From Trissonchulus latispiculum (lineage: Eukaryota > Nematoda > Enoplea > Enoplida > Ironidae): DNA of 64,000 nucleotides. Of this stretch, positions 8,989 to 48,156 are shown piece by piece. A program made the position numbers and the translations under genes. Positions within the stretch are counted from its first letter, which is position 1, and every line of letters begins with the position of its first letter. The notes beneath the pieces were generated by a model that did no database searches, was not told where the DNA came from, and worked only from the letters and a program-made list of their open reading frames with translations. The DNA lies in contig JASAND010022292.1 in assembly GCA_030248195.1 (NCBI GenBank), positions 19,078 to 83,077 of the forward strand, in the 5' to 3' direction.

Positions 8989-9114
8989 TTTTGTTATGTA
9001 TTTTACCATTCATGTATTCTTTCCGTTTACTGCTTTCGCTGATAGTTGGAGTTGTGTTTTGGTTGAGTTTTTGGTACTGGGTCATGTATAGTGTTTTTGC
9101 TGTCAGAGATCACG
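8989..9114 (+). CDS. channel gene A exon: first transmembrane segment (TM1)
   Basis: The frame encodes SFRLLLSLIVGVVFWLSF and continues WYWVMYSVFAVRDH, a tryptophan-rich hydrophobic helix of TM1 type entering the ectodomain. The first in-frame Met is at 9012; the acceptor AG at 8987-8988 would allow reading from an upstream exon. The donor G|GTAATA after 9114 leaves phase 1, matching the phase 1 acceptor of the EGF-like exon at 12050. No homology search was possible. The call rests on hydrophobicity, splice phase and position. Confidence 0.5.
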
Positions 9115-9422
9115 GTAATAATGCTCCTCATAGAGCTGAACATCCATTATTCTTAAAAAAAACCCCGTTCTGATATCAGGTTACTGTAGCAAGTTTCAAT
9201 GAATTTTAACCACAAGTACGAAATTATATGAAGCCGAGCCAGCGCCTTCAAAAATACTTAAAAATATTGACGTAAGGAAGATTTGAATTGTGATATGTCA
9301 TAACAGTATTAAAATTTTAATCATTCACAGTAACCAAGCGTTGAAATGGCAACTTCGTTTTCCGAATTCGTACCCAAGAACTGTTTGAAAACGTGGAACA
9401 AGTAACTGTTGCAACTGCTTAA

Positions 9423-10398
9423 GGTGGTGATTCCCTTTGGTCACATAACGTTTGCACCACTATTAATCATTCATTACTTGGAGTTAAGAAGCCACTTTTA
9501 TATCAAAATGCAGCTTGACATTTTCTCTTATTAATGCATACCATGAAACTAATGTTATCCTTCTAAAATATTTTTAACACATTCTAGAAGAAGTATAATT
9601 TTTCAGATTTTTTGCAGACTCAAGTAAATTTTTTCGCGAGACATCGGTTACATCTCTCGATACCTCCATCAAATGGCTGGGGGCGATTTTTTATTTATTG
9701 TGAAATCGCGCTTCGTTATGGGGAAATAAGCTGAAATGTGTGCGTAACCTGTATTTTGCCTACTTTTTCCAAATTTGTCAAGCGATTACTTTAGGTAGAA
9801 AGCAGTAATCGGGGCAACTAAAAATGTCCCTGGGTATATTTGTGCAGAACACATCTGTTAGGTAGCAGCCTTCCAGCTTGCATGGTAAATGCTCTACAAT
9901 CTTTGGAAAAAATTGGTCGTGTTTTTTGCAAAAACTACATATTTCATGATAGCAGCAGGATAGGTGTTGGATGACGATCATGCGTCGGATAATTTGCCCC
10001 TATGAGACCTTCAGATCGACGCCCTTAGTTTGATTTTACGGCTTGTATAGTTCACGAAATTATGGATTATTTGATTTCTGCGAAAATCACAAGTTTTCGA
10101 CGACAAAACAAGAAAATCGGCTATATCTCACGGTAGTGAAAAGCTAGAACGTTTCTTTAAAAAGCAAACATATGAAGCTCAACGAGAGCTTTCGAATGAG
10201 TATAGTCATAACTGTATAGCTGCTGCCAAACTTTCAAAAATTGGGAAAAACCGCCCTGACCGGGAACCTTAAATTTTTGATTCGGGATTGCTCGGAGGGT
10301 GTTAGAACGCCAAAAGAACATATTTCGGAAAGTTTCGTCAAATTTCATCTTGATTTACGCCGCCAACCAACAATATGTGCCCAAAAGGAATCACCACC
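9423..10398. mobile_element. TTAA-flanked non-autonomous DNA transposon
   Basis: Inverted termini GGTGGTGATTCC (left) and GGAATCACCACC (right), extending with mismatches to about 28 bp, are bounded by TTAA on both sides (9419-9422 and 10399-10402). TTAA duplication is typical of piggyBac-like elements, but these termini do not start with the usual CCC, so the superfamily is left open. No transposase frame is visible. Very similar ends (GGAATCACTACC then TTAA; GGATTCACTACC then TTAA) occur at 14841 and 20862. The element sits in gene A's intron after the TM1 exon. Confidence 0.7.
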
Positions 10399-10402
10399 TT
10401 AA

Positions 10403-11403
10403 AGTAACGTTTCTTATGTGCCGAATAGACATTAATCTAGCCACCTGACTCTTTACTATGGCATTTTGTGTGTTGTCATAGGCAGCGAACAGAAGGTCCA
10501 GTAAATCAACCTGAGGATCATGAATCTTGCATCAGCCAGTTTCACAAAAGGGCTGGTAACACCTGTTCCGTAACTACTGCCTGAATAGATTCTTGGAGTA
10601 CTTCTGCTACACTGCGGAACTTATGAAAAATTTAGCCGCATCAGGCTAAGCTACACCACTTAGTCTGAGGCTGAATTTAGCTTTGTCTTAACGTTGCACT
10701 CGGAAAAACGTTTTCTTTAGAGGATATTCCTAATCAGTGGTTAGCAAGTTTACTCATTTATAGACAACAGCAGCAACCTTGCTGAATTCTGGAAAACGAC
10801 AAATATTTTGCTTATTTCTAAAAGTAGGCAAAGGCCTTTCCGAATTCTAGAAATGAGCAAAAGTTTCATGATATTCTGCAAAAGTTTAGATTGCCCAATT
10901 GTAGGAATTGGAAAGCAAATTTTTACCAAAACAGAAATATGTACCTTTCTAATAGCTGTTTCAAAAATACCGACCCTGTTGCACCAGCTTTAATCAGGAA
11001 TCAGTGATCAGTAAATTATTTTCCGTTGCACCAGATGACTCATTGCTGATTACATAAGAAATACTCATTCCATAGGAACATATTTACTGATTACAGATTA
11101 CACGAAAAATGCACATTTACTGATTATATACTGACTGATTGTCCCGGAATGTGAAATGGTGCTGGAGCTCATTATTTGCAAGTCTAGACTTGACATGCCC
11201 CCCCCCCCCACTTACACCGCAGTAAGAAACCACCGATATCAGAAGTTCTATGTTTGTATTTCAGAACGCCATGTGCCAGAAAAAACGCTGTTAATATTTG
11301 ACTATCGGAGCAGATACCTAACGAACTTCATGATATGCTGGCTGTATTGCTAGCTGGATCTCTCTTGGCCTCAAGTAATCAGTTGTACAGCTACTGTCAT
11401 ATT
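10403..11403. other. intron A (TM1 to EGF-like), no gene
   Basis: AT-rich intronic sequence with short repeated words related to CTGATTA (about 10985-11150) and a homopolymer C run near 11200. No exon or RNA gene recognised. Confidence 0.35.
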
Positions 11404-11450
11404 TCAGTGGAAAGAAAGATTCTTTCTTTCTTTTCTTTCTTTCTTTTCCT

Positions 11451-11481
<31 letters not shown>

Positions 11482-11495
11482 TTTCCTTCTTTCAA
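11404..11495. repeat. TTTC microsatellite with inverted GAAA tail
   Basis: A run of TTTC units with TTTTC variants. It starts and ends with GAAAGAAAG words, so short hairpins are possible. Intronic. Confidence 0.85.
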
Positions 11496-11737
11496 GAAAG
11501 AAAGGAAGAAAAGAGGGGGCAAGAATCAAAGTTTCTTGATATAAAGGTCAGTCCAAGCACTTGATTGACATTTGTTTTGGAAACCTTGGGCTTAATAGAC
11601 AGGGTCTGTCCGTGCATATATGCGTGCGTAGTGTAGGAGAAGAAGCCAAGTTTACATCAAAGTGAGTGTTAAGCAAAAGGTACAGATCAAATATCACAAC
11701 ATTGAGGGCCAGACCAGGGTAAATTCAAATTATTGGA

Positions 11738-11738
<1 letters not shown>

Positions 11739-11780
<42 letters not shown>

Positions 11781-11823
11781 TTTCTTTTCTTTTCTTTCTT
11801 TCTTTCTTTCTTTAAAATTTCTT
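11739..11823. repeat. second TTTC microsatellite
   Basis: Nearly pure TTTC repeats with a TTTTC block, about 250 bp after the first tract. Intronic, upstream of the EGF-like exon. Confidence 0.85.
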
Positions 11824-12049
11824 TTTCTTTGCACTCAAATATGACAGTAGCTGTATTTGCACAAAATTGTTAGCTTTTCAACGCTGCGCATTTCCTGTGG
11901 TCGTATACTGAAATTGAAACAAATTGCTAATCAGTAACTGCTAACATGTGTGTAAAGTTTAATTTAAGACGATGAGTAGAGTAAGTAAAAAACTTTTGTT
12001 TAAACTGGGAATATTATGGATATTTAAACTTGTACCGCTGTAATTACAG

Positions 12050-12379
12050 GCAGCTTAGTCTGGCAAACCGATGCCTTCTCCCTACACAATGATGGTTACT
12101 ACTACGGCTTTACAGCCTATGGGCAAGACTGCACTTCCTTTTGCATCTCAAACCTTATGGCATGCATCAGTGATCGATGCTACAACTCAACCCGTATTAG
12201 CAACATCCTGCTTCAGGAACGTTCAAACGAAGGCCTCGTTTGTGATCATGCCATTGATACACTGCCGTTCCTAGGATATATGGATGGCACTATTTGTGAC
12301 AGTTCAACATGCAAATCTGACATATCTCAGGCCTGCACATATGTCCAACCTAATCTTATGATGTTCTGCAGATGTCAAG
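12050..12379 (+). CDS. channel gene A exon: cysteine-rich EGF-like module
   Basis: Acceptor TTACAG before 12050 and donor CAAG|GTTTGT after 12379 bound a 330-nt exon with phase 1 on both sides. It encodes about 110 residues: DGYYYGFTAYGQDC, then CISNLMACISDRC, VCDHAIDTLPFLG, and the closing CTYVQPNLMMFCRCQ. About ten cysteines and the terminal C-x-C-x are EGF-like, though spacing is not canonical. Gene B has a matching exon at 57609-57924 that also starts with NGYYY and ends with FLCRCV. Nematode EGAS channels (EGF plus ASC) are a known precedent for this pairing. Its role is probably extracellular binding or tethering (inference). Confidence 0.75.
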
Positions 12380-13018
12380 GTTTGTCCTAAATTTCATCTA
12401 CTCGTTGAACACGGCTTCGGCAGTTAGGTCCCCTCAAGCATGCACGCTTACTAGGTCACATTGATTATGTATGTACATATCCGCAATCCGGATGCGCACT
12501 GGAGTCTTAACTGTTTAGCTATAAAAGTTTAATTTAAATGCCAGATCCTTAGTGTTGACCCTATTCACACTGAAGTCTTTAGTCCTTGCCATGAAGTCTA
12601 AAGTCTTATTAGATCAATTTATTTTAGATGCAATTGTGAAAGTATATACATAAACTTTCGCAAACTACAGAACTTAGGATTTTTACTTAAAACTCCAGTG
12701 TATATACATAAACCGAGATTTAATTCTGCGAGAATTTAAGACTTATTTAATACTTTGCGATTTAATCTGTAAAAAGCCGACAACCAAACGCATGATCAGT
12801 ATTTCGCAGGCTTCCTGCACTGAAGCACTAAAGTCTGACCAAAAATTCTTGGAACCGAAATGTGAGCGGCTGTCCTGAGTTATCATTTGACTGACTTTGA
12901 CTAATTATATATATATATATTGATGATATATATATATATATATCAAAGTCGTGCTAGCCCAACCAAACCAGCCGAAAGTTCTGTCCAAGAAAGAAAACGT
13001 GGGTTTTTCCCACTTGGC
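12380..13018. other. intron A start; AT palindrome
   Basis: Intronic. Only clear structure: two TA-dinucleotide runs at 12905-12944 flanked by inverted GACTTTGA/TCAAAGTC, which makes a short hairpin. The remainder shows no gene. Confidence 0.4.
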
Positions 13019-15070: not shown

Positions 15071-15077
15071 CACTTCT

Positions 15078-15121: not shown

Positions 15122-15193
15122 TAGGGCGAATGTCACTCAGGTGGCGAGGTGTCCCTCCGACCTCTAACGTTTGGTCGGATATAGTGTTCGTTA

Positions 15194-15510: not shown

Positions 15511-18500
15511 TCAGTTCAGGAGGAACGTAATCGAGTCGTCGGCAAGCTCTTTATCTTCAGGTGGTAGGGACAGAAAGGAATAGGGGGCTATGAAGTTAGC
15601 TGGAGTGATCATTTGACCATACTCGAAGTCAGCTTCTGGTGCTATCAGCGGTCTTGAATTGAGGGTGCCTTCGATCTCTGTGATGAGAGTAACGAAAGCC
15701 TCACTTGTCATGGTAGTTCTCCAAAGGCATTTCTTTAGGGCTCTTTTTACCAGACCTACCAAGCGTTCGTAGAACCCTCCAACCCACGGGGACCTTTCTG
15801 GAATGGTTTGCCAAATGATTTCATGCTCAGCAAATAGTTTAGTCAGCCGAGCATTCAGATCCTTGCTATCCATGCTGTCTTCCCAGATACTGTTGAATAT
15901 CTTTGATGCCTTCGAAAACTAGGTAGCATTATCGCTAAGTATGTACCGTGGTACACCTCTACGGGCGATAAATCTTTGAATAGCATGAACTGCAGACTCT
16001 GCACTGCAGTCTTTCACTACTTCTAGATGGATTGCTCTCGTAGAGAAGCAGGTGAACAAGGCAATCCAAACTTTTGAAGAGTCTCCCGAACGTTCTTTCA
16101 CATAAAGACGACCCATATAGTCCATTCCTGTATTTGTGAAGGCAGCTTGTTTGGAGAGCATTTCTTCAGGAATTTGCCCCATTTTAGGAGGACGGAAAGT
16201 TGACCCCTCCGATTTTCTGCAAATTCGGCAACTTCTAACGACATTCTTTACCCGTGAAAGACCCTGGGGTATCCAATAGCGTTTTCTGACTTCCACCAAG
16301 GTGTGTCTTCCGCCAAAATGTTTGACAGCTTTGTGAGCCTCTTCAATTACCAGACTTGTGAACTTATGCAATCTTGGGAGAAGTACTGGAAACTTCGTCT
16401 CTACAGCAACCGGGGCATTTGCGAGACGTCCACCACAACGAAGAATCCCGTCGTCCAGAAATAAATCCAGTTGTCTAGCGAGCTTGGTCGGTTTCTTTCC
16501 TTCTCTGAAGACTTGAATTTCGTTGTGGAAGGCAGTCATTTGAATACTGATCACCCACAGCTTGCTTGCTGCCTTCATCTCGTTTCCTCCAGGAACAAGC
16601 GAAGACGGAACCTTCTGACCTTTCAATCCTTGGATGAATCTTGTACAGTAAGCCGTTACTCGAAGAAGCTTTTTGATAGTCGAGAATACATGAATATCAA
16701 TTCCGTAAGGTGGGGTTTCCGAGACATCCACATCTACACTGAGTTCATGAGCAACTTCGGTAACTATTGGCGGAGACGGATCGGAAGTATCGTCCTTGGG
16801 ATTGGGCCAGTACGCCCAGGACGAGGGATCCGTGCCAATAAAGGATGGCCCATGAAACCAGTGTGATGATAACAGCATTTCGCCTGATGTACCTCTTGAG
16901 GCGAGATCAGCAGGGTTTTCCTTGGACTCTATATAGCCAAACTTGATGTCGCCTTCTCCTTTTATCTCTGACACTCTTCGTTGTACGTATGGGCCAAGAC
17001 CTTTTGTTGAATGAATCCAATGCAAAACAATTTGAGAATCAGTCCAGAGAGACAATCCGTGAACTGGCATGCGGATATGCTTGGCTGTAAAGCGTAGTAA
17101 CCGTGCGCCAGTTAAGGCACCAAGCAATTCTAAGCGAGGTATTGTCATCTGTGGACGGATAAGGGAAAGCCTTGCTTTTCCAAAGACGATGTGACACTGC
17201 TCACCATGAACCAAGTAGACAACGCAGGCATATGCCACGTTGCTGGCGTCACTACAACACACCAGATAAATTGGAGCCTTGACTTTGCCATCTAACAGAT
17301 ATCTCGGCATCTGAATCTTTGCACTTTCCATCATGTCGGCCTCTATTTTTCGCCACTCGTCAACTTTTCGACTGGATAATTCGTCATCCCAATCAAAGCC
17401 TTCCTTCCATAATTGTTGCAGCATGATTTTTCCTTTAACAGTGATTGGTGCTAGAAATCCCAAAGGGTCAAAGACCTTGGCGACTTGATGTAGTATGGTT
17501 CTCTTTGTGACCAAACTTCCCATCGTGGTCGGCTTATACTTCAGTTGTATCATGTCCGTTGTTGTATTCCACTGGATTCCCAAGACCTTGACGCATTCAT
17601 CTTTCACCACATCAGATCTGGAAAATTGTTCTGACAATGGCTTGTTGTTGGTTGACCATTCGCGTAGATTCAATGACGCCTTTCTGAATTTATTCTTCGC
17701 TTGTCTGTAAAGTTTCACTGCTTCTTCGGCATCCGCAGCGCCAATGAATACATTGTCCATGTATATATTTCCTTTGATTTTCTCCGCAACGTCGCAGGGA
17801 TTGAGATCAAAATGAAAGTCAATAGTGGCACCCAACAGAAACGGAGACGCCACTATTCTTGTGGACCGGTAATGCTGGATGTTTTCATGGGCCGTTCGCT
17901 TATCAGGCTCCTTAAGCCACAGAAACCGGGTGCTTTCTCGATCTCTCTTCTGCAACCCAACTTGTAGAAAAGCCTTTTCGATGTCTGAAGTCATCGCGAT
18001 AGGATGTAAGCGAAATCGTAGTAGTAGGCCACCCAGATCCTCTAGATAGTTCGCGCCAGTGTGAATGAGGTCGTTCAGGCAGTTTCCACCCCTGGTTTTC
18101 GCCGAAGCATCGTAGACAATTCTTACTTTCGTGGTGGTTCTGTCTTTCTTGATGTGTGGGAAGTGAGCGATGTAGTGAACCAACCCTGCTGGCATAGCCT
18201 TGTCATCGATAGGTTTAATTACATTTTTGGCCAGTTGATCCATGATGATTCCATTGTAAGTGTCGAAATTGCCCAGTTCATCAGGATTAGCCAACAGTGT
18301 GTCCAGTGTTCTCTGAAGACGGAATTTAGTCATGCGGTAGTTAGTGCCGATTTCAGGATTAGCCACCTTCCAAGGCATTTGAACGAAGTATCTATCTTCT
18401 TCGATGACAGTGGTTTCCCTGAAATTCTTGATGAGTTGATTGCCCAAGGATTCCTTGTTCTCCGTACTTTCACCTTCTTTAATTCCTAGTGTATCAAGCT

Positions 18501-18819
18501 TCCATAAGTCGGCAATATCTACACTAGTGCTGCACAAAAGTTTGGTAACAGTCGTAGGCACCGGAGGCTTCTGCGTCATTGTATTGCCCGCCAATATTGA
18601 TCCCAATGGACTTTGATGCAGAACCAACGCGCCTTCCAACTGAATTGAATTGGATATCTTTGGACCCAAGATCATGTTCCAATGATCCATGCCTAACAGT
18701 ATGTCGATTTTCATGTGCTGAACCTTCTTTGGAGGGGCATTTTTCGGCTTAAACTTCTTCACTGTTTGCCAGGATTGAGAATTCAGTCGAATTGGATAAA
18801 TTGGCAATGGAGGAGCCAT
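15511..18819 (-). pseudogene. BEL/Pao pol: protease end, RT, RNase H, integrase
   Basis: Protease end: DILLGMDHWNMILG. RT: VRIVYDASAKTRGG, MTSDIEKAFLQVGL, and NIYMDNVFIG where most RTs have YxDD, so one catalytic Asp is Asn. RNase H: VCCSDASNVAYACV, TIPRLELLGALTGARL and LWTDSQIVLHWIHS. Integrase: HKAVKHFGGRH...CRICRK finger, GMDYMGRLYV (first D), LSDNAT (second D), then a TAG stop at 15919-15921, and in the same frame SPWVGGFYERLV (E). The altered RT site and the stop make it non-functional. The 966-codon uninterrupted part suggests moderately recent decay. Confidence 0.88.
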
Positions 18820-20692
18820 CCCTGGAACAGCGTATGCCTTGATTTTGAGTTGAAATTGGTTTCTCCATGTTCCACCAACTCTACCAGTTGTGCTTTCACT
18901 TTTTCCACCGCACAGGCATTGAAGCGAGCTGTGTTAAGGATCACATCCCTTATTGGAACCAAGCCAAGATTTTCGGCTGAAGACTTGTCTATGCACGTAT
19001 ATCTTGCTCCAGCATCGAAGTATATATTCTGTAGCTTACTTCTTTGGGTTGCTGGATTACTAACCTTTGTGGCACAAGTCGCCATGATAATACCATCTGC
19101 CTGGGCATTACCAGCCAGGAAAGTTTGGAATTGCCCCATATCTTCATCCTGAGTTGTTGGTGATTCCGTGCACGACAAGTGTTGCTGAGTACCAACTGAC
19201 GGTGGCTTCTTCGTATTGCATAGACTGGCATGATGCCCATGTTTCTTGCAATGGTAGCATTTCTTATTCTTCCGACAATCTTTCGACAGGTGTTGAGTAC
19301 TGAGGCAAATGAAGCACCGACCTTCAGTCTTCAACATGTTCCGGCGTTGGCTGATATCCTCAACGACTTTGCAGTCGTCGCTGTAGTGTTGACAACCACC
19401 ACAAAAACACACTTCCTACTGGTACGAGCCCCTTCTTTCGTTTGAGATTGGAAAAGAGAGGCCGCAGTTGGAAGACAACCAACTCTATCCTTCTCTTTTA
19501 CCTCTCTATCTTTTTTGGTTTGAGTGACGTAGAGAGCCCGGATCTCTGACAAAATTTCTATGAAGTCTTGTATCTCCCAAGTTTTTCTGTTGGTGCCTCT
19601 TATAGCCCTGATTCGCTTGATTTCACTCTGCAGTGAGCTAAGCAGCTTGGCCATCATTGAATATACTTGAAAATCTAACGCCGCTTTTGGCACTTCCATT
19701 TTAGTCAGAGTTGCAGTTGTGGCCCTAACCTCGTCTACGAATTGCTCAAGGTTAGCACAATTTTCTTTGACCGGCGGCATTGCCTGGAACGCCTTTAGCC
19801 TAGCTTTCGGGTCGACCATACTCTTCTTGAAGGATTTTTATAGCCTCTGCGTAGCTGTTGCCTTCAACAGACAAACCTTTCACCTTATCTCTGGCTTGAC
19901 CCTTGAGAACTTGAAACAAATAGTCAAGCTTTTGTTTGTCCTGAAGTTGTGGTTCGGAATCAACGTACGTTTATATGGAAAGACTCCCAAAAGCTTAGCC
20001 ATTCTAATTTGTCACCAGAAAAGTGTGGAAGTTCAACCTTTGGCAACTTAGCTACTCCAACAGAACGTCTACTCTCACCGTTTGAATCCTCTTCTGGTGA
20101 TCTCTCTGTGGAAACTGACGAATTTGCAACCAACCTGGTCAGAACCGCCATTTGTTCTCTTTGAGCTTCCATGAATTCCCTTCGTTGAGTTTCCGATCTT
20201 TCCAAATCCTCGGCCCTCATTCTTTCGATTGCTTCCAAGTCCTGTTTTCGCTCTCTTTCTTGTCTTTCGATGAGCTTTATCATGACTTGGACCATGCCGT
20301 CGTCGCTCTTGGCCTTTGTAGCCACAGGGTCACCAAGGGTAACGGTGGAAAGGCTAGGACTTGGGTTGGGGATGGGGTTAGGAATGGGGTGAGGGTTCAT
20401 GGGCCGCCTTCCCACCTTTGCTGGGTCACAATTAAGGTTTTCCAATTCCTTCCAGGAAGCACCGCAGCAGTTGCATCTGAAGGGGGACGTCGGAACACCT
20501 ATCACATTCCCAGGGAAATTCTTTCAAATCCACCAATGCCCAATATAGAGAGTCCGTCAAAGATCCATTATCCTCCTCGTTAATACAGTCCTGACAAATC
20601 CAGTTCCCGCAAGAGTCACACTTTAGTCCATTGGCACTATCCCTGCCGCGCCGAAACCAAGGATCCGTTGAAATTTGAGATTTTGATTCCAT
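18783..20692 (-). pseudogene. BEL/Pao gag with PHD-like finger and CCHC knuckles
   Basis: First segment (20692-20432) carries a CX2C-rich finger (CDSCGNWICQDC...CDRC) of PHD/RING type, known at the gag start of some Pao elements. Next (20505-19960) is a coiled, Glu/Arg-rich stretch and VELPHFSGDKLEWLSFW, the hallmark of Pao gag. Then 19819-19331 gives the rest of gag, and 19412-18783 has the knuckles CFICLSTQHLSKDC and CYHCKKHGHHASLC followed by the protease site YFDAGARYTCID. Frameshifts separate the segments. Confidence 0.85.
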
Positions 20693-22532: not shown

Positions 22533-25500
22533 ATAATTACACATCCACAACGTCAACTTTTACAACCACAACAACCACAAGCACAGCCACTACGACCACG
22601 TCAACCAGTACTACAACCCAAACAACAACAAGCACAACCACTACGACAACGTCAACCAGTACTACAACCCAAACAACCACAAGCACAACTACTGCGACCA
22701 CGTCAACCAGTACTACAACCCAAACAACAACAAGCACAATCACTACGACCACGTCAACCAACACTACAACCCAAACAACAACAAGCACAACCACTACGAC
22801 AACGTCAACCAGTACTACAACCCAAACAACCATAAGCACAACTACTGCGACCAGGTCAACCCAAACAACCACAAGCACAACCACAACCACTACGACCACG
22901 CCAATCAGTACTACAACCCAAACAAGCACAAGCACAACCACTACGATCACGTCAACCAGTACTACAACCCAAACAACAACAAGCACAACCACTACGACAA
23001 CGTCAACCAGTACTACAACCCAAACAACAACAAGCACAACCACTACGACAACGTCAAACAGTACTACAGGAAAAACAACCACAAGCACAACCACTACGAC
23101 CACGTCAACCAGTACAACAACTCTAACAACCACAAGCACAACCACAACCACTACGACCACGTCAACCAGTACTACAACCCAAACAACCACAAGCACAACC
23201 ACAACGACCACGTCAACCAGTACTACAACTCTAACAACCACAAGCACAACCACAACCACTACGACCACGTCAAACAGTACTACAACGCAAACAACCACAA
23301 GCACAACTACTGCGACCACGTCAACCAGTACTACAACCCAAACAACCACAAGCACAACCACTACGACAACATCAACCACTACTACAAGAAAAACCACCAC
23401 AAGCACAACTACTGCGACCACGTCAACCAGTACTACAACCCAAACAACCACAAGCACAACCACTACGACAACATCAACCACTACTACAAGAAAAACCACC
23501 ACAAGCACAACTACTGCGACCACGTCAACCAGTACTACAGGAAAAACAACCACAATCACAACCACTAAGACCACGTCAACCAGTACTACAACTCTAACAA
23601 CCACAAGCACAGCCACAACCACTACGACCACGTCAACCAGTACGACAGCCCAAACAGCCACAAGCACAACCACTTCGACCACGTCAATCAGTACTACAAC
23701 CCAAACAACCACAAGCACAACTACTACTGAGACCATGTCATTCAGTACTTCAAGCCAAACTACAAGCACTATCACTGAGACCACGTCAACAAGTACTACA
23801 AACCAAGCAACTGCAAGCGCAACCACTAAGACCACGTCACCCAGTACTTCAACCCAAACAACAAGCACAACTACTGCGACCACGTCAACCAGTATTACAA
23901 CCCAAACAACCACAAGCAGAATCACTTCGACCACGTCAATCAGTACTACAACCCAAACAACCACAAGCACAACCACTACGACCACGTCAACCAGTACTAC
24001 GACCCAAGCAACCACAAGCACAACTACTGCGACCACGTCAACCCAAACAACCACAAGCACAACCACAACCACTACGACCACGCCAATCAGTACTACAACC
24101 CAAACAAGCACAAGCACAACCACTTCGACCACGTCAATCAGTACATCAACCCAAACAGCCACAAGCACAACTACTATTGAGACCACGTCAACAAGTACTA
24201 CAACCCAAGCAACTGCAAGCGCAACCACTAAGACCACGTCACCCAGTACTTCAACCCAAACAACAAGCACTATCGCTGCGACCACGTCAATAAGTACTAT
24301 AACCCAAACAACTACGATCACTACCACTTTGATGACCCAAACCACTGACACCGCGACCACAACAACAACAACTACCGCTTTCCAAAGTACTTCCGCCGCT
24401 CCCGCAACAACAGCAACAACAACAAGCACTACGAAAAAAACCACATTACCCAGCACTTCAACCGAAATAACAACCACTACCAGTGAGACCACGTCAACAA
24501 GTACTACAACCCAAACAACTATGAGCACTACCACTAAGACCACGTTAACTAATACTGCAACCCAAACAATCACTGTCACTGCGACCACAACAACAACAAC
24601 AACCGCTGTGGCTGTCCAAAGTACTTCTGCCGCTCCCGCAACAACCACAACGACCATCAGCACTTCCACGTCATTCATTACTACAACCCAGGCAACTACA
24701 AGCTTTAATGCTGAGACCATGTCGACAAGTACGACAACCCAAGCAGCTACAACTACTACCATTAAGACCACATCACCCAGTACTTCAAGCCAAACAACAA
24801 ACACCATCGCTGAGAACGTGCCGCCCATTACTTCAACCCATAGAACAAGCACTACCGCTGAAACCACGTCAACAAGTACTACAGCACAAGCAACTACAAG
24901 CACTACCACTAAAACCACATCAATCATTACTACAACTCAAGCAACTACAAGAACTGCTAGTAAGACCACATCACCCAGTACTTCAAGCCAAACATCAAGC
25001 ACTATCGCTGAGACCACGTCACCCAGTACTTCAACACAAACAACAAGCACTATCGCTGAGAACATGCCACCCATTACTTCAACCCAAACACCAAGCACTA
25101 CCGCTGAAACCACGTCACCCAGTACTTCAACTCAAATAACAGGTACTATCACTGAGAACATGCCACCCATTACTTCAACTCAAACAACAAGCACTACCGC
25201 TGAGACCACGTCGACAAGTACTACAACCCAGACAACTAAAAGTACTACCATTAAGAACACGTCACCCAGTACTTCCAGCCAAACAACAAGCACTATCGCT
25301 GAGAACATGCCACCCATTACTTCAACCCAAACACCAAGCAGTACCGCTGAAACCACGTCACCCAGTACTTCAACTCAAATAACAAGCACTATCACTGAGA
25401 ACATGCCACCCATTACTTCAACTCAAACAACAAGCACTACCGCTGAGACCACGTCAACAAGTACCGCAACCCAAGCAACTACAAGCACTACCACTAAGAC

Positions 25501-27845
25501 TACGTCACCCAGTACTACAACCCAAGCAACTACAAGTACTACCACTAAGACCACGTCACCCAGTATTTCAAGCCAAACAACCACTGTCGCCGCGACTACA
25601 ACAACAACAACGACAACTATCGCTGTTCAAAGTACTTCTGCAGTCCCTGCAACAACCACAACACCCACTACCACAAAGACTTCGTCAAGCAGTATTTCTA
25701 CCCAGTTAAATAGGGCTATCACAACCACAACAGCAGCTGTAGCTGTCAAAACTACTTCCGCAATACCTGCAATATTTAGAACAATCATAAGCAGTACCAC
25801 TAAGACCATGTCAACCAGTGCTACAACACAAATGACCTCTGTCAGGACGCCCACAACCACATCTGCCGATGTCCAAAGCAGTTCCACAGCAACCACAACA
25901 GCCACAAACACTACCGCTAGGACCATGTCAACCACTGCTTCAGCCCAGGTAACCAGTGTTGCCAGAACAACAACAACAACAACGACCGCTGTCCAAATTT
26001 CTTCCACAGTCCCCGCAACAACACTCATCACTTCAAAAATAACTTTTAAAGCAACCATCACCACTACTACAGCTACACCAACAGTCCGTATGATAAGGAC
26101 ACCTACCACCACTGCCACTTCAAAGACTTCCACATTCACAACCAAGGCGGCCACAAGCCCTACCTCTATAACCACGTCAATCAGAGCAATAGCCACAGCC
26201 ACAAAAATAACATCTACCACAGTCATCGTCTCCATTACCTCGACAGCCGCGATCCCTACAATAACAATGACGGACACTATCACTTCTATTGTGTTCACGT
26301 TTACAGCGGAGACTGCGTCAACCACTACTTCAGTGCGAACAATCCCAGTATCCATGACAACAACAACAAAAACAAAAATCGCTGTCCAAAGTAGTTCCGC
26401 TATCCCTAAAACAACCACAACAGCAAGCGCTACCGCTAATACCACGTCAAGCAATCCTGCAACACAAACAACTACAAGCACTACCCCTAATACCATGTCA
26501 GCCAGTACTCCAACCCAGACAACTGCAAGTACTACTGCTAAGACCACATCAAACAGTACTGAAAACCAAGCAGCCACGTTTGCCACGACCACAACAACAA
26601 CAACTACCGTTGCCCTGAGTACTATCACCGCTTCTGCAACACCCACAATGACTACAACCACTTCCAAGGCATCAACCTTCACCATCGACACACCTACTAT
26701 TGCGAAGACCACGCTAACCACTAGTGCAACAAGAGTAACCACTGCAAGGACTTCGACGACCACATTCGCCAGGAAATTAACTATTGAAATCAAATCCATA
26801 ACTACCGTCACAGCCAACACCAATACTGTAGATTCAGACCAGACAAGCAAGCCCGCTGCTGCTGCAATTACACACAATCCCAATACTTCCGTCATAATCG
26901 CGTCAATGACTAGTACCGTGAAAACAACAGATACCAGAGTTCTCATCATCACTACAAGAACAACAGCCACTGCAGCCACTATGCCTGCTACAGCTGTAGG
27001 CAAAGCCATGAAAACAGGAACCTCTCTAGTAATCAGCTCGTCATCTCCATTAAAATTTGCAGCCACAACGATTTCGACGCTATGGAGAGCAAATGCTGCA
27101 ACTGTAATTTCATCAAAAACAACCAGAATCTCGATATCTAACGTGATCACATCAGTTAAACGTAGCACACCTACAACATTGCCTATGCTTAAAACTTCTG
27201 CAGTGTCTGTTACAACTACAACTGTTACCCTAAAACTGACTGCTATGTTAGAAGCTATAATGAATGCTCCTGTATACAAAGTATTAACAGAGACAGTCAT
27301 ATTGACTCCAGTAACCTCAATGCAAGCTACGATCTTCAAAACGTCTTTGTTCCCAACAAAATCTACAACAATAATGACAGATTCCACTAGCTCAGACACT
27401 AACAGAACATCTACCACCAAATCAATAACATTAGTTTCGTACTGGGCAGCAACAAAAATGATGCCTGTTGGAACTAAAATGCTTACTGAAACTAACACAC
27501 AAATATTAACAGAGAAATCAAGAACAATCGAAGTAGTTAATGCTTTAACAGAATCGTTAAAGGCAGCAATTGCCGGACAAGAATTGATAACGATGTTCAA
27601 GTCATCCCAATTATTTCCACTAACACCGACATTTCAGTCGAAAATGAAGCCCCTGTCTTCGCCAATGATGCCACTATCATTTTCAATATCACTTCCGCCC
27701 TTCCTTGCCTCTCCGCTATCATTAACAGCACATAATAGAGAAACTATCTTTTCTGCAGCAGATACCAGTAGTCACAATGAGTATGACCTAGATAACTCAC
27801 CTGAAATGATATATTCATTATGGAAATATCTTACTCAACCCAATG
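22533..27845 (+). CDS. channel gene A exon: giant Thr/Ser mucin-like domain
   Basis: Acceptor TTCAG before 22533 and donor AATG|GTAAGT after 27845; phase 1 on both sides. The frame is open throughout (checked codon by codon from 22535 to 23735) and encodes about 1771 residues dominated by Thr, with Ser, Ala and Gln. The first kilobase is 17-residue units of type TTTSTTTTTTSTSTTTQ. Later units are 16 residues with IAENMPPITSTQ. The last ~350 residues are less repetitive, ending EMIYSLWKYLTQPN. Such Thr/Ser tracts are expected to be densely O-glycosylated, giving a stiff extended stalk. Gene B has a Ser-rich counterpart ending with a similar AMSNTT sequence. Long reverse-strand frames here are low-complexity shadows. 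Confidence 0.8.
22541..23760. repeat. 51-bp coding tandem repeat
   Basis: Units of 51 bp (17 codons) based on ACAACCACAAGCACAACCAC and CGTCAACCAGTACTACAACC repeat with point changes and in-frame deletions. All unit lengths are multiples of three, so the reading frame is preserved. Less regular 48- to 60-bp units continue to about 25600. This is a likely length-polymorphic coding minisatellite. Confidence 0.85.
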
Positions 27846-27954: not shown

Positions 27955-28129
27955 GTTGGATGGAAGGGGCATCACAAGAAAATCAACTCTCCGTTTCTGC
28001 GGTTACAAAGGAACTGATTTCTCTTTTGTCTGGGACATTGTCAATGGCAGAATTAATACAAATGGGATATCAGCGTGACGACATGTTTATTCAATGCTCA
28101 TTTGATCGCCATTTGCACGGCTGCTACCA
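27955..28129 (+). CDS. channel gene A exon: start of ENaC extracellular core
   Basis: Acceptor TTTCAG before 27955, donor CA|GTAAGA after 28129; starts phase 1, ends phase 2. Encodes WMEGASQENQLSV, then ELIQMGYQRDDMFIQCSFD and RHLHGCYQ. The pattern G-x-x-x-x-D-M-x-x-x-C-x-F is the first palm/finger cysteine region of the ASC family. Gene B's equivalent (61003-61159) reads ALIQLGYQPDDILIKCSFD. Confidence 0.9.
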
Positions 28130-28373: not shown

Positions 28374-28480
28374 AGTGTTTAAGAACCTATTTCACGACAG
28401 CACATACGGAAATTGTTTCACAACGCATAATTCGAGCGATTGGACTACTCTCGTTTCATCCACTTCAGGGGCTGATGCAG
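28374..28480 (+). CDS. channel gene A exon: ENaC YGNC region
   Basis: 107 nt, phase 2 to phase 1, after acceptor TGTTTCAG and before donor GCAG|GTAGTA. Encodes VFKNLFHDSTYGNCFTTHNS and SDWTTLVSSTSGADA. YGNC[FY] with following Asn/Ser is a diagnostic ASC motif. Gene B has an exon of the same length reading LFHDSLSGNCFSTHNSSDW. Confidence 0.92.
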
Positions 28481-33342: not shown

Positions 33343-33344
33343 AG

Positions 33345-34271
33345 ATATACTTTATACCACGCCTCTGCGTGCATTCAGAGATATATACGCACGCCGTGCG
33401 GGAAGCTCCGAGTGTGTGGCACGAGTGCGCGAAGCGCACGATCTGCACCCCAATCTGTACCATCCGTTGGCTGAGGCAGTTCCTGGCAGACCGGAGGGCT
33501 TGTGCTAAAATCAACTCCTCCAAAAGCAAGCTGAAACCGCTTCAGCTTGGAGTGCCCCAAGGAAGCTGCCTGTCCCCACTGCTCTTTCTAATCTTCATCA
33601 ACGATATTCTGGAAGGCATGCCCAATGGAATACAAGCCTCCCTGTTTGCTGACGACTTGGCCCTGTGGGCGCAGGACACCAGCACAGCAACTGCCGAGTC
33701 CAATCTACAGTCAGCTCTCAACTCACTTCACCAGTGGTCCCAGAAATGGCACATCAACGTGAACGTAGGCAAATGTGAGAGCATGATCTTTACCACCCAC
33801 AACGCCGAAGCCAACCGGAAGCTGAATCTGCGATATGGCAATGACCCTATCCCTTGCAAGAACTCTGTCACCTTCCTGGGAGTCACATTCGATCGGCTGC
33901 TCAACTTTGGACCCCATGTCGCGCAACTGAAGTCAAAATCAATGGCTAGAACCAAGATCCTGTCTGCTCTGGCTGGGAAGAACTGGGGCCTGTCCAAGGA
34001 AGACCTCAGGTCAGTCTACATCACTTTCATCAGATCTGCATTGGAATACTGTGCTGGTGTCTGGGGGCCCATGGCAGCTCCAACCCACCTGTACACGGCA
34101 GAGAAAGTCCAAAATCGGGCTTGCAGGATTATAACTGGCTGCTACAACTCGTCTCCTGTAGAGGCACTTCAGATGGAAGCTGGAGTAATGCCGCTGAAAT
34201 CCCGTGTCCAGTTCTTATCCGCCAAGGCCTACGAAAAAAGCCTACGATCTGAGGTACTGTGCTGTAGCTGA
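33345..34271 (+). pseudogene. non-LTR reverse transcriptase (C-terminal two-thirds)
   Basis: Encodes LGVPQGSCLSPLLFLIFIND (RT domain 4), ASLFADDLALWAQD with the catalytic FADD, KCESMIFTTHN, VTFLGVTFDRLLNFGPHV and ALEYCAGVWGPMA. These motifs are in proper order and spacing. The endonuclease and first RT blocks are missing because of 5' truncation. The frame stops at 34271, whereas the RNase H part reads in another frame, so a frameshift lies near 34204-34270. Confidence 0.88.
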
Positions 34272-35370
34272 ACAGCCGGGGGTCAGACTTAGAACCCTCA
34301 AAAGCCAACCAAACTGGAGAACCGAAGTCAGTAAAACCGTCAATGAAACCTGCCTCCAGCAGTGCGTCCGAGAGCCTCTCTGCCTGCTACCTCCAACTCC
34401 CCCTTGGGAACTGAGACCGGTGGTGGAGACAGACTCCACGTTAGCGAAGAACTGCCAGAAATCACTGCCGCCGGACACAAGAAGAAACATGTGCGCAGAA
34501 GCTATCTCCAGGCTGCCCAGAGCCGATCTGGACATCTGGACGGATGGCTCAGCGGAGTCTGGAACTAGCAAAGGCGGAAGCGGGGTACTCATCGTCGACA
34601 ACCGAAGAGGCAAACGGAACCATCTGGCTTTTGCAGCTGGAAAAGTGTGCTCCAGCTACAGGGCGGAGGTAAATGCCGTGCACCAAGGGCTCAGATGGCT
34701 CCAACGGAACTACATCACTGCTGACTGCAGTCTGATCAGGATCTACACTGACTCACTGTCCCTAGTTGAACGCCTCTCCAATGGGCTTCGCCTCCCAGCC
34801 ACTGACCTGGAGCAGAAACTTTGGCAGCAGCTGCAGCTGTTCGCTCAGGCTGAGATACAGGTCCAGATAATGTGGGTCCCCAGCCACTGTGGCGTGAGAG
34901 GTAATGAGAAAGCCGACAGGATGGCCAGAAATGGTAGCAGAATGGCGCAGGACCTGGTCCCAATCGATCTCCCAACAGCTACTGCTGTCCTGAGGAGGGA
35001 AACGACGTTGGCGTGGCATACTGGACTGAGCCACGACAGATCCAGGACATTATTTAGGGACCGCGGGCCGGTCCCAGCTAACCGCGAAATGGGCATCCCC
35101 AAGGCCCACCGAACTCTACTGTCACAGCTGCGAACTGGTAAATCCCTCCTCCTAGCCCAATACAGGCATACTATTGATCCAGCTGGCTGTCCCTCCCCCC
35201 TTTGCCCTGACTGCCTACAGGAAAAAGAAACGCTCGAGCAGTTGATCTTGAGCTGCCCCAGGAAATCAATAACCCGGCGTACCCACCTCGACTGCTCCCA
35301 AGGCCTGGCCGTCCTGTGGTATGACCCTCCCGGGGTGTTGGACTTCCTCCGGGGTACCGGGCGCCTTTAG
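34204..35370 (+). pseudogene. non-LTR RNase H domain and terminal zinc finger
   Basis: Encodes DIWTDGSAESG (first Asp), SSYRAEVNAVHQGLRWL (Glu), RIYTDSLSLVERL (Asp), MWVPSHCGVRGNEKADRMAR (His and Asp), and then CPSPLCPDCLQEKETLEQLI with LSCPRK as terminal finger. All four RNase H acidic residues are visible. The stop TAG at 35368 precedes a short 3' UTR and the ATG-repeat tail. Confidence 0.88.
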
Positions 35371-36463: not shown

Positions 36464-36627
36464 GATTAAACGTTGTTTTACGTCTGAGCTCCGAAGATTA
36501 TCTGAGTAATTCTGAAAGTGTTGGTGCTAAGTTAGTCATTCATCAGCCTTCGTCTCATGTTCATGTCGACTTATCAGATTCTATCGATGTTCTTCCAGGA
36601 TTCCATACAAAAATTGCGCTAAGAGGT
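36464..36627 (+). CDS. channel gene A exon: ENaC G-L-x-x-V-L core
   Basis: 164 nt after acceptor CATTGCAG; phase 1 to phase 0 with donor GGT|GTAAGT. Encodes LNVVLRLSSEDYLSNSESVG, AKLVIHQP, DSIDVLPGFHTKIALRG. This is the ASC signature (GL.LVL....DY......GAK..IH......V.PG..T.IAL). Together with YGNC it identifies the family beyond reasonable doubt. Confidence 0.95.
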
Positions 36628-37656: not shown

Positions 37657-37752
37657 ACTCAACATAATGTTGTATCTGATGATAGTCGCAGGTGCATCCA
37701 CTCTACCGAAGAAATTAGTCCGTACTACTATGCATCAGATTATCAAATCGCA
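37657..37752 (+). CDS. channel gene A exon: ENaC knuckle/finger segment
   Basis: 96 nt, phase 0 on both sides, after acceptor ATTATAG and before donor GCA|GTATGT. Encodes TQHNVVSDDSRRCIHSTEEI and SPYYYASDYQIA. Gene B has an exon of exactly 96 nt (63161-63256) with RCIHSVEEVDPYFYSSDYKI. The conserved Cys and following aromatic stretch match the PYG-x-C...Y region of the family. Confidence 0.88.
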
Positions 37753-39265: not shown

Positions 39266-39374
39266 TCTTGTATGGTAAGTGCAGCCCAAGAGATGTACGT
39301 CGAGATATGTGGATGCGCTAATCCCAAGTTTCTGTTTACTACGAAGCTTCCTTGGTGCAAGACTATAGAAGAGA
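39266..39374 (+). CDS. channel gene A exon: ENaC CGC motif
   Basis: 109 nt, phase 0 to phase 1, acceptor TTTCAG, donor GA|GTATGT. Encodes SCMVSAAQEMYVEICGCANP, KFLFTTKLPWCKTIEE. The C-x-x-x...V-x-x-x-C-G-C block is the post-finger signature of DEG/ENaC. Gene B's exon (63734-63842) is also 109 nt with MYVDSCGCANPKF. Confidence 0.93.
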
Positions 39375-40906: not shown

Positions 40907-42217
40907 TCACGCTTTTGCATCTTTCAAGATAGGCCATATCCAAGTTAATGCATTAAGCTTAAGACCTTTAGGATAGTTGTATCGAAAGCAAAACTCGTCC
41001 AACAGGGCTCCTCTAGAATGCTTTTGGACGCCATGAGCTGCAGGAATGAACTGCTTCAAAACGCCCCAGACTCCTTCAATAGCCTGAGTATGCGTTCCGT
41101 CCTCAGCGACGAATTCCTCATTATGATTACAAGTTGAATGCTTGCAACCACAACGATTCAGGTTGATATAGCTGCGAAACTGGTCAGAATGAATAGTTGC
41201 ACCCGGTGGAACATGGGAAGTTATGTACTTCAACAAAGTTTTCTCAGTCCGGTTAGCGACAGAATAGATCGCCAGCAGATGGGAGGAAGATTGAAACATC
41301 CCAAAAAGCCAGTATCGCTCAAATAGTTTTCCTTTATTACATTTCTGAACTTTCCCAGCTGAATTATGATGATGGGAGGAAGATTGAAACATCCCAAAAA
41401 GCCAGTATCGCTCAAATAGTTTTCCTTTATTACATTTCTGAACTTTCTGAACAGCCAAACGATTTCTGTAACGATGATCAGTCTCTTGTAATGTCGGTTC
41501 TTCTGGGGCCTCTTCTTCCAGATTGGGTTCAAAAGCTTCAGCATGGACGTCTTCAGGCACATGGAAAACCATCGGGTTTCGGCTAACGCAGTTGCTGATG
41601 CAACAACGGATCTGGGCAACCCTGTAAAGCAAAAAGGACAAAATATTCACTAAATACAACAAGATTATTGATAGAAGTCAATTTACAACTTTAAACTTCA
41701 TAGAATACGGACCGCCACATTCAGTACAAGATTCGCTGAGATGCAGTTAAAAATTAGCAAATGAAATTACTTTGTGTTAGTCCTGCAAATCAAGATATCT
41801 TACCATGAAAAAATGGTTTTCTCATCCACCTGGGGTACACACTGTGTGATTGTAGTCACATGCATACCAATAGCGAAGCAGTAGATGGTTTGCAAGAAAT
41901 AGCTCATTTCTTGTTTGACTCCTTGAAAAAAGGAACCATGCAGTTCCGACTTGCTCGTGTTGCACCTACAACAATAAAATTTCCAACCACATTTCCTGCT
42001 GTTGTCAGCGCTTGGTCATTTCTGTTCCGCATTTGTCACAGGATGGCACACAGAGCATTCCTTGATGCTTCAAGAACGCTTTTGTGCTCTCCTCAGATCG
42101 AGTGATATCAGCCAATTCAGAAAAGGATAAAATGGGACAGGAATGCAACTTAGCTGATATATCTTCCGACAATAATTTCCTCTGCTGATATTTTCGGATC
42201 AAATGCTTCAAAACCAA
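40907..42217 (-). pseudogene. Merlin-type (IS1595/ISXO2 DDE) transposase, damaged
   Basis: On the - strand: SEESTKAFLKHQGML followed by a zinc ribbon CDKCGTEM...KCGWKFYCCRC, with a frameshift near 42020. Then GSFFQGVKQEMSYFLQTIYC and a possible donor ATG|GTAAGA at 41807. Next, downstream of acceptor TTTACAG (41623), comes the DDE part: KCNKGKLFERYWLFGMFQ, SVANRTEKTLLKYI, ATIHSDQFRSYINL (Asp), CNHNEEFVAEDGTHTQAIEG and VWGVLKQ (Glu). A 93-bp in-frame duplication repeats the KGKLFERYWLF block. The first catalytic Asp expected before it is not evident in any one frame. Probably inactive. Confidence 0.8.
41279..41446. repeat. 93-bp tandem duplication inside the transposase gene
   Basis: The block GGGAGGAAGATTGAAAC...CTGAACTTTC occurs at 41279-41353 and, identically, at 41372-41446 (period 93 bp, spacer included). 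It adds 31 codons in frame. The two copies look identical, so the event is recent. Confidence 0.9.
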
Positions 42218-43405: not shown

Positions 43406-43484
43406 TTGCTTTTTAGACCCAAATGTATAGCACCAGTAGCGAGCTTTGCAGCTGTGTCAACTTATTTGGTGGGGTTAGTCGCTT

Positions 43485-44468: not shown

Positions 44469-44544
44469 TTACTTGCCTGATTCAGCACACAGCGCAGATT
44501 AGCAACTCCCTGGAGGATCTACGACATTGTCAAGAACCTTGTCG
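44469..44544 (+). CDS. channel gene A exon: ENaC C...CxxPC segment
   Basis: 76 nt, phase 1 to phase 2, acceptor TTTCAG, donor CG|GTAATA. Encodes TCLIQHTAQISNSLEDLRHC followed by QEPC. C...L...C-x-x-P-C is the cysteine pair that closes the ASC thumb. Phases match the exons on either side (39266-39374 and 46682-46739). It begins about 230 bp beyond the Merlin-like element. Confidence 0.85.
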
Positions 44545-46681: not shown

Positions 46682-46739
46682 GCAAATGACTTTCGATATG
46701 ACAATAAGTCTGGCCAGATATCCACAAACGCATTTTGTT
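46682..46739 (+). CDS. channel gene A exon: ENaC post-Cys Y/F-D-x-S strand
   Basis: 58 nt, phase 2 to phase 0, acceptor ATTTTCAG, donor GTT|GTAAGA. Encodes QMTFDMTISLARYPQTHFV, matching the ASC pattern Y-x-V-S-x-S-x-x-x-W/Y-P that follows the C-x-x-P-C pair. Confidence 0.85.
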
Positions 46740-46883
46740 GTAAGAAGCTCAACATGTTACCATAATGTGATTGAAAAAGATACTAGAAATTTTAGCAGAT
46801 CTTCGATTATAATTTTAATGTCCTATTCTTTCACCTTCAGACTGCTTCTGACATTTTGTTATATCATCTTATTCGTCTTTTAG

Positions 46884-46921
46884 TGCCCATTTTGTACAAC
46901 GAACAATAACGAATCTCAAAC
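46884..46921 (+). CDS. channel gene A microexon (38 nt)
   Basis: Bounded by a strong acceptor (CGTCTTTTAG) and a consensus donor (AAAC|GTAAGT). Encodes CPFCTTNNNESQ and leaves phase 2. It is the piece that reconciles the phase 0 donor of the previous exon with the phase 2 acceptor of the next, which strongly supports it despite its size. Confidence 0.75.
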
Positions 46922-47361
46922 GTAAGTTGGTGTCTTTTACACAAAACACAATGTTTGGTTATGACATAACTGACTGGTATTCGTTTCTGTACCCTGCAGC
47001 AACAGTTTGCATTTATGTCCATGTTAACTAGTTGTAAGTAGTTCTTATCATTGCTGTCTAAAGCTGTTGCTCGACCGGTTTTGCAGCTCAGCCGCCCGGC
47101 TAGGCGGGCGGATGGTGCAAACCAGCTGGCCGTTCGGTTATGTACAATATACCGCCTGGTCGTGCATTTCAAATAATGTCAAGTATTGTCACTGGTTCAC
47201 GTGACCAGCCAGCCGGCCGGCCGGTTGCTTGTAGTCCGTCCGGCCGGGCCGGCCGGATGGCCTCTACCCTTGGCCTATTGGCCGCCGGTGGCCAGCCGGT
47301 TTGAAACCGGACGGCAACAACTCCATATGCTGTCTTGTACCACCCGAAATATTAATTCTAG
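46922..47361. other. intron A with CCGG-rich island
   Basis: 47080-47310 holds clustered CCGGCCGG and CCGGTTTGAAACCGG words in otherwise AT-rich DNA; possibly another GC-rich MITE, but ends were not defined. Confidence 0.4.
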
Positions 47362-47434
47362 AGTGTACAGCAACCTTGAAATATACTACGAAACTTCAAG
47401 AACAAAAACATATCAAGAAGTTTACAAAGAAACG
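47362..47434 (+). CDS. channel gene A exon: ENaC pre-TM2 L-x-I-Y-Y motif
   Basis: 73 nt, phase 2 to phase 0, acceptor AATTCTAG, donor ACG|GTAAGG. Encodes VYSNLEIYYETSRTKTYQEV, YKET. This corresponds to the ASC strand N-L-x-x-L-x-I-Y-Y-x-x-L that leads to TM2. Confidence 0.88.
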
Positions 47435-48024
47435 GTAAGGCTGGCGTTTTGTTCACACCTCTGTTTTTATATTTTTTTGTGTAAATAGCTAAACTTTTGC
47501 ATCATATGAATACCTGATTTAACAGAAAGTGCCATTACACCCTTTTTCTTTTAAAGCAAAGTGAGTCATTTGTTCCTTAACGAAGGTAATAGAATTGCAA
47601 AGCCGAAGGTCACTAGAATTATTAGCAATACATACCATTGAAATATTAAACTTAAAACAACTATTCAAAAACTACTGCAATATTAAAAACTGCAACAAGA
47701 GCCAAAATTTAAACGTTTTTATAAAAGTAACTGATTTCTTGGGAATCTTCACTAATATTTTGACAAAAAATTCATGTTTGTTACACGTTAAATGTACATG
47801 CCAAATGTTAAACATTTGACCATCCTACGGCGGAGATACTTTTTCGTGGTTTATGGTTTTCTAAGTTTAAAATCTGAATTCTCATAGTTTTGCAGAACCA
47901 CAGATGTGGCATATTTTTTTAAACCTAAGCTAACTTTCAATGCATGGATGGCAATCAAATTCATGTGGCGGATCTCTGTCGTCACCGACTGCAGGAGAAA
48001 CAAGATGGCTTTGGTTAATTTCAG
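47435..48024. other. intron A, no gene
   Basis: AT-rich last intron. The 3' end has the acceptor TTAATTTCAG. Confidence 0.6.
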
Positions 48025-48156
48025 TTTTGTAATACGATCAGCGATGTGGGAAACTATCTTAGCATTACAATGGGACTGTCCGTCATCGGTATAATTGAAA
48101 TAATGGCTTCCTTGGGATACTTTGTGATAAATAGAATAATGTCTTTGCCAAAATAA
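48025..48156 (+). CDS. channel gene A terminal exon: TM2 with G-x-S filter
   Basis: Phase 0 acceptor, 43 codons and stop TAA at 48154-48156. Encodes FCNTISDVGNYLSITMGLSV, IGIIEIMASLGYFVINRIMS, LPK. It aligns with the family consensus D-I-G-G-x-L-G-L-W-L-G-A-S-x-L-x-x-x-E. The ion-selectivity G-x-S is GLS and the Glu at the inner part of TM2 is kept. The intracellular C-terminus is very short, about a dozen residues. Confidence 0.93.
   Translation, partial: FCNTISDVGNYLSITMGLSVIGIIEIMASLGYFVINRIMSLPK

Follow-up and report, generated by a model that had tools for sequence, protein, structure and literature searches.

What kind of protein is encoded where the core of an ion channel is spliced to a very long mucin-like exon? 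The question is raised by a 64,000-nucleotide stretch of DNA from the nematode Trissonchulus latispiculum, bases 19078-83077 of contig C15106 (JASAND010022292.1) within a 733.8-Mb assembly, referred to here as the window. Its plus strand carries an ENaC-like gene, gene 1, that is complete from exon 2 onward, and a tandem paralogue, gene 2, that is truncated where the contig ends. Upstream of gene 1, outside the window, lie the final exons of a further paralogue, gene 0. Gene 1 belongs to a multi-exon family found at several loci of the genome, which joins a signal-peptide-like start, a ten-cysteine domain, a mucin exon of variable length, and an ASC core that runs from the finger region through the second transmembrane helix (TM2). 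In the favored reading, which has a probability of roughly 0.5, the stalk would couple the protein to the glycocalyx or matrix.

Gene 1 is composed of 12 exons between 12050 and 48156. The borders are GT-AG, the phases match, and a single frame ends in one terminal stop. The splicing models also carried the first exon of a preliminary description of this DNA (9012-9114), hence 13 exons. The exons from the second onward are as follows.

Exon 2, 12050..12379, plus strand: Cys-rich domain with 10 Cys, phase 1 in and phase 1 out as modelled.
Exon 3, 22533..27845, plus strand: mucin-like Thr/Ser exon, 1,771 amino acids.
Exon 4, 27955..28129, plus strand: start of the ASC core (..GYQRDDMFIQCSFD).
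Exon 5, 28374..28480, plus strand: ASC core, YGNC motif.
Exon 6, 36464..36627, plus strand: ASC core, G-L-x-x-V-L.
Exon 7, 37657..37752, plus strand: ASC core.
Exon 8, 39266..39374, plus strand: ASC core, CGC motif.
Exon 9 (start revised), 44469..44544, plus strand: C-x-x-P-C motif.
Exon 10, 46682..46739, plus strand: ..TFDMTISLARYPQ.
Exon 11 (new relative to the preliminary description), 46884..46921, plus strand: CPFCTTNNNESQ, conserved in gene 0.
Exon 12, 47362..47434, plus strand: ..LEIYYETS.
Exon 13, 48025..48156, plus strand: TM2 with the G-L-S filter, stop codon.

The preliminary description had proposed twelve exons with consistent phases. Apart from one exon start that was moved and one exon that had been missed, its joins from 12050 to 48156 stand; its first exon does not. 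The start of exon 9 at 44493 is superseded by 44469. A candidate for exon 11 at 46841-46893 was dropped, as gene 0 pointed to 46884-46921 as the likely true exon; the counterpart there is clear (CPFCTTNNNESQ in gene 1 vs CPFCSSSLNESH in gene 0). With both changes made, the score against the ASC profile rises from 147.2 to 153.9 bits.

The core clearly matches the ASC family. A search against Pfam ASC (PF00858), suggested in the preliminary description, matches it with an expectation value (E) of 9.2e-45 and 153.9 bits vs a curated cut-off of 23.6. The thumb and palm cysteine motifs YGNC, CGC, and C-x-x-P-C are present in the spliced exons, as are G-L-x-x-V-L and the GLS-containing TM2, all as first reported. 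The core had also been called full. The match spans only profile positions 140-453 of 455, so the N-terminus, the first transmembrane helix (TM1), and the beta1 strand are unmatched. For an earlier model of the core, the best match in the PDB was the ENaC gamma subunit (2.6e-18), aligned over residues 242-551 and reaching TM2. Residue 242 of ENaC gamma is taken here to lie in the finger region. A protein database search with the core gave none of 1,395 candidates at E <= 0.001, in a database suspected to be poor in animal proteins.

TM2 exons were read in gene 1 and its copy, in gene 0, and in two further members, gene 3 and the locus on contig C7078. The G-x-S filter occurs in four of four members seen, as GLS in gene 1, GMS in gene 0 and C7078, and GIS in gene 3. 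All four also have a conserved Glu in TM2.

Exon 3 is a very long mucin-like exon built into this ENaC-like gene; splice phase, selection, and relatives all give this claim of the preliminary description good support. It consists of 46% Thr and 15.6% Ser, with Thr, Ser, and Pro making up 65% of its 1,771 residues, and has no Cys. A 51-bp (17-residue) repeat array occupies 22561-25584 and is followed by a non-repeat tail. The long Ser/Thr-rich tandem repeats by which membrane mucins are recognized are thus present. The frame has no stop in 1,771 codons vs a mean of 64.4 per plus-strand frame in 300 dinucleotide shuffles. No shuffle (0/300) left a plus-strand frame open over the whole exon. The 2,261 bases after the array are likewise open, again with 0/300 shuffles open.

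A second copy of the gene 1 locus was found on contig C14750 by core search, and 20 kb of it were read. This copy may be an allele or a duplicate. Its mucin frame is open for 1,766 residues to the donor, or 1,747 from the best-scored acceptor. The repeats have turned over between the two, with 901 of 1,686 aligned residues identical. Over these 1,686 codons, the ratio of the proportions of nonsynonymous and synonymous differences (pN/pS) is 0.60 (95% 0.56-0.64), and mismatches at codon positions 1, 2, and 3 number 519, 500, and 816. The open frame, compared with the shuffles, and the similar open frame kept in the copy establish that the mucin exon is coding.

Selection is also seen on the exons to either side. 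Exon 2 retains 93 of 109 residues in the copy, with a pN/pS of 0.35 (bootstrap 0.16-0.68). The core retains 186 of 199 residues, with a pN/pS of 0.17 (0.08-0.32). This comparison covers 5/10 core exons (4, 6, 8, and 10, plus exon 5, for which the gene 3 sequence was used); exons 7, 9, 11, 12, and 13 fall outside it, as the filter drops identical exons and those without a match. Gene 1 and gene 2 share 127 of 206 amino acids over core exons 4-8, with a pN of 0.221, a pS of 0.771, and a bootstrap range for pN/pS of 0.23-0.36.

The same arrangement recurs elsewhere in the genome. Upstream sequence was read at loci chosen from a core search whose listed matches fell on 41 contigs and took in ordinary ASC genes as well. 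The set comprises 10 copies or loci on 8 contigs, counting the C14750 copies and excluding gene 2 of the window, whose frames are broken. At 9/10, a mucin-type exon with a phase-1 donor is followed by core exon 4. The lengths of these open frames to the donor are upper bounds, except at C7815, because a frame may begin inside the intron.

Gene 1: 1776 residues.
Gene 1 copy (C14750): 1766 residues.
Gene 2 copy (C14750): 268 residues.
Gene 3: 901 residues.
C4427: 894 residues.
C17040: 1179 residues.
C639: 452 residues, Thr, Ser, and Pro about 0.35.
C8197: 92 residues.
C7815: at least 168 residues, cut by the contig end, Thr, Ser, and Pro about 0.34.

The Cys-rich exon lies upstream at six of the ten (gene 1, its copy, the gene 2 copy, gene 3, C4427, and C8197). 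None was found in the stretches fetched at C639, C17040, and C7078, and C7815 ends at the contig border. Exon order, continuity of frame, selection on the Cys-rich and core exons, and a shared exon junction are established for the gene 1 family.

These observations bear on the simplest alternative, that two adjacent genes, a secreted mucin and an ENaC, were wrongly joined, or that exon 3 is a chance open frame of low complexity. The long introns and transposon-rich sequence of the locus would suit such an error. The phase-1 donor that comes right after the mucin tail and before core exon 4 at 9/10 copies or loci argues against a misjoin. The shuffles, none of which stayed open, and the C14750 copy, which retains the frame under constraint, argue against chance. 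This alternative is highly improbable.

The Cys-rich domain of exon 2 was first described as EGF-like. This identity finds no support in Pfam or in the cysteine pattern: all 10 Cys are invariant in the four aligned members, vs 6 for EGF, which makes it a ten-cysteine domain instead. C4427 and C8197 were found later and stand outside the alignment. Pfam gave no match for gene 1 up to E 5, nor for three relatives up to E 10, in a scan where the HMMER filters discard most matches above E ~0.1. The PDB gave none to one sequence (E <= 1) or to a four-sequence profile (E <= 10). A single-sequence fold had a mean predicted local distance difference test score of 43.2 and was not used. By eye, the Cys-rich exon of C4427 (L052, C4427:34001-43673) lacks the fourth Cys and has one extra.

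Exon 2 follows a phase-1 intron and starts with WQTDA/FS, QHADA/LQ, HQVDT/FA, or NTDA/FA in different members. Judged by eye, five of these starts (gene 1, its copy, gene 2, gene 3, and C4427) could be where a signal peptide ends; the resemblance to a cleavage site is weaker in C8197. If the likeness is real, the mature protein would begin extracellularly and carry the Cys-rich domain on the far end of the rod.

What precedes exon 2 is the point on which the remaining readings part. The preliminary description had inserted the mucin domain between TM1 and the channel core, with a TM1-like first exon at 9012..9114 (+) joined 9114/12050. That exon is rejected, being part of a dispersed repeat and without a counterpart in the sister copy. 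A 191-base query covering it (8940-9130) has five further genomic matches, 74-81% identical, three over nearly the whole query and two over part of it. The contigs that carry these matches are absent among the core's matches listed. The proposed exon sits between inverted-repeat elements at 8463-8865 and 9419-10402, and nothing in the 15.8 kb upstream at the sister copy (C14750) resembles it. No TM1/beta1 module was found at the loci read, and the proposed position of the mucin domain is not supported.

Other first exons were sought. Of 13 ASC proteins from this genome, 12 were kept (4/12 cut before beta1) to build a profile of the N-terminus, TM1, and beta1, which was applied to regions that reach 5.8-21.7 kb before the Cys-rich exon. 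Its control is an almost identical relative of a training sequence and is therefore lenient. When five of the upstream regions were scanned for first exons containing a hydrophobic stretch, no candidate was common to the loci. A signal-peptide exon candidate at window -6663 (MRNFIFSIFCVSV, with a perfect donor) is not claimed, as neither the copy nor gene 2 yielded a counterpart. Upstream of gene 2, no conserved TM1 exon was found; two TM1 exon candidates there (donors 56740 and 57001) lie outside the blocks aligned with the copy.

Several points weigh against a stalked channel. The TM1 profile found nothing in the 10 family regions, which comprise gene 1's contig and 9 others (best E 0.31, control 2.9e-36); with TM1, beta1, and the cytoplasmic N-terminus not found there, channel function is only putative. 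The gene models are predicted from genomic sequence. Dense O-glycosylation of the Thr/Ser exon is predicted purely from composition, and Pro makes up only 3.6% of exon 3. Successive parts of that exon have pN/pS values of 0.51, 0.67, and, in the last stretch, 0.80 (0.66-0.99), so that this last stretch evolves near neutrally. The exons of C639 and C7815 are less rich in Thr and Ser (about 0.35 and 0.34 with Pro) and are weak cases. At C7078, exon 4 is present, and neither a mucin exon nor a Cys-rich exon could be confirmed among open frames of at least 100 residues in the sequence fetched ahead of it.

A TM1-less, single-pass type I surface mucin would account for much of this. A cleaved signal peptide would replace the N-terminus, TM1, and beta1 of an ancestral DEG/ENaC, the ASC ectodomain would be kept, and the former TM2 would serve as the anchor of a receptor or glycocalyx component, or contribute to a pore only with other subunits. 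The ASC match that begins at position 140, the negative profile in 10 family regions, the signal-peptide-like start of exon 2 in five copies or members, and the repeat origin of the earlier TM1 candidate are all consistent with it. Against it, TM2 keeps G-x-S and the conserved Glu in 4/4 members seen. No first exon was found, and one with TM1 could lie further upstream or have diverged too far; the signal peptide was judged by eye and is less convincing in C8197. This alternative is possible, with the odds leaning against it. Its evolutionary form is a tentative proposal of similar standing. An animal lineage would have turned a DEG/ENaC channel into a family of surface mucins. A signal peptide, a new ten-Cys domain, and a mucin rod free to change in length would have taken the place of the cytoplasmic N-terminus, TM1, and the first palm strand, with the finger, thumb, and TM2 filter under purifying selection. 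The outcome would be a one-helix ENaC subunit with a built-in extracellular tether, several hundred nanometres long by general mucin geometry.

An ordinary two-pass channel with an insert in the finger domain is less likely still. The N-terminus, TM1, and beta1 would be coded far upstream, and the mucin would shield the channel or be clipped to gate it. ENaC has a protease-released finger segment, of which the insert would be a giant counterpart. The core resumes at ASC position 140 and at ENaC gamma residue 242, taken to be in the finger region, and the mucin exon is very variable in length, as expected of a peripheral insertion. This arrangement is opposed by the profile, which found no upstream exon for the N-terminus, TM1, or beta1 in the 5.8-21.7 kb before the Cys-rich exon, and by the hydrophobic scans of five upstream regions, which gave no shared candidate. 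The signal-peptide-like start of exon 2 also argues against preceding sequence.

The family products would, on the sequence evidence, be mucin-stalked surface proteins derived from DEG/ENaC channels, probably channel subunits coupled to the glycocalyx and possibly TM1-less single-pass mucins. Conservation of the filter and core favors the channel subunit coupled to the glycocalyx or matrix. In such a subunit, the Thr/Ser exon is predicted to be O-glycosylated into a stiff rod that would raise the Cys-rich domain off the membrane. The rod would attach to the finger, the outer part of the ASC ectodomain. With G-x-S kept in TM2, the product may retain a pore. Rod and Cys-rich tip could couple the ectodomain to the glycocalyx or matrix, and a pull or surface contact would then gate or position the protein. 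That the built-in stalk acts as an extracellular tether is a reasonable inference, made plausible by experiments on ENaC glycans as tethers described in passages of PMC7958617.

Gene 2 has the same order as gene 1: a Cys-rich exon, a Ser-rich exon, and an ASC core. Its borders were set by eye.

57609..57924, plus strand: Cys-rich exon, frame broken here, open through in the C14750 copy.
58857..59548, plus strand: Ser-rich mucin-like exon, frame broken here, open through in the C14750 copy.
61003-61159, 61591-61697, 62359-62522, 63161-63256, and 63734-63842, plus strand: ASC core exons 4-8, by similarity to the gene 1 exons.

Beyond exon 8, gene 2 is past the contig end. Since the copy on C14750 is open through, the frame breaks in the window either reflect true divergence of the copies or stem from faulty assembly. 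Between the window and C14750, aligned blocks upstream of gene 2 show about 80-96% identity. Pfam gave no match to two gene 2 core frames taken singly.

The surroundings of these genes are rich in mobile elements. Intron 2 of gene 1 holds the open frames of a Pao-type long terminal repeat retrotransposon on the minus strand (15922-20523), with peptidase A17 and integrase domains in 15922-18933 and further frames reaching 20523. Intron 5 contains reverse transcriptase and RNase H frames like those of long interspersed nuclear elements (33330-35367, plus strand). Intron 8 contains an ISXO2/IS1595-type transposase frame with a 93-bp tandem duplication (40910-41677, minus strand). Three stretches with terminal inverted repeats (8463-8865, 9419-10402, and 11386-11855) resemble miniature inverted-repeat transposable elements; an element of the 9419-10402 type, 76% identical, occurs upstream of gene 3 as well. 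Two opposed tRNA-family matches with similar flanks (49284-49356, plus strand; 49672-49744, minus strand) are perhaps tRNA-derived short interspersed nuclear elements. Between gene 0 and gene 1, a 343-residue open frame on the plus strand (C15106:10001-20000, L010) looks by eye like a seven-helix receptor. On the minus strand of C15106:1-10000 (L009), an open frame resembles, by eye, a Polinton-type DNA polymerase B.

The genome also holds ASC genes of another build. Among the matches listed are 95 ASC profile matches, many of them single open frames of several hundred amino acids that cover the greater part of the profile. They form a large DEG/ENaC expansion, poor in introns, next to the mucin family with its many introns.

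The family bears on the question of how DEG/ENaC channels connect to the extracellular matrix. It offers a natural series of built-in stalks of roughly 90 to 1,770 residues, with which the effect of stalk length on force or surface sensing could be tested directly. Should the TM1-less alternative be true, a further question is whether an ASC protein can work with one membrane helix, or what such a protein becomes.

Compared with DEG/ENaC/ASIC channels (Pfam ASC, PF00858), the gene 1 family is alike in the profile match at 140-453, in YGNC, CGC, and C-x-x-P-C, and in the G-x-S of TM2, and the closest solved relatives are ENaC subunits. It differs in that TM1, beta1, and the HG region were not found in the regions read, and in the Cys-rich domain and mucin exon that come before the core.

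Fractalkine (CX3CL1) is composed of a small Cys-containing domain, a mucin-like stalk, and one membrane helix. The likeness lies in a Cys-containing domain held on such a stalk above a single helix; fractalkine is a chemokine unrelated to channels, and its stalk is far shorter. The EMR-group EGF-mucin adhesion G protein-coupled receptors likewise present Cys-rich modules on a mucin-like stalk, followed by a signaling part in the membrane, which in their case is a seven-helix receptor without an ASC domain.

The nematode EGAS proteins, which combine EGF with ASC and are named in PMC10424705, also have an extra Cys-rich extracellular module in an ASC protein. In the gene 1 family, this module contains 10 Cys and finds no match to EGF, and it is set apart from EGAS by description, not by sequences. 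The word "mucin" does not occur in the main text of that paper, and no mucin domain in ENaC, degenerins, or ion channels is described in the titles and abstract openings returned by an open-access literature search.

A functional parallel lies in the glycan tethers of ENaC. According to the abstract of PMC7958617, knowledge of ENaC tethers is scarce. Added N-glycosylation motifs increased the shear response, and in the construct tested, the glycan-linked response needed an intact matrix. Glycans of the ectodomain couple ENaC to the matrix for this response, much as the stalk of gene 1 might. The tethers of ENaC are single N-glycans (PMC7958617), whereas a whole O-glycan rod is predicted in gene 1.

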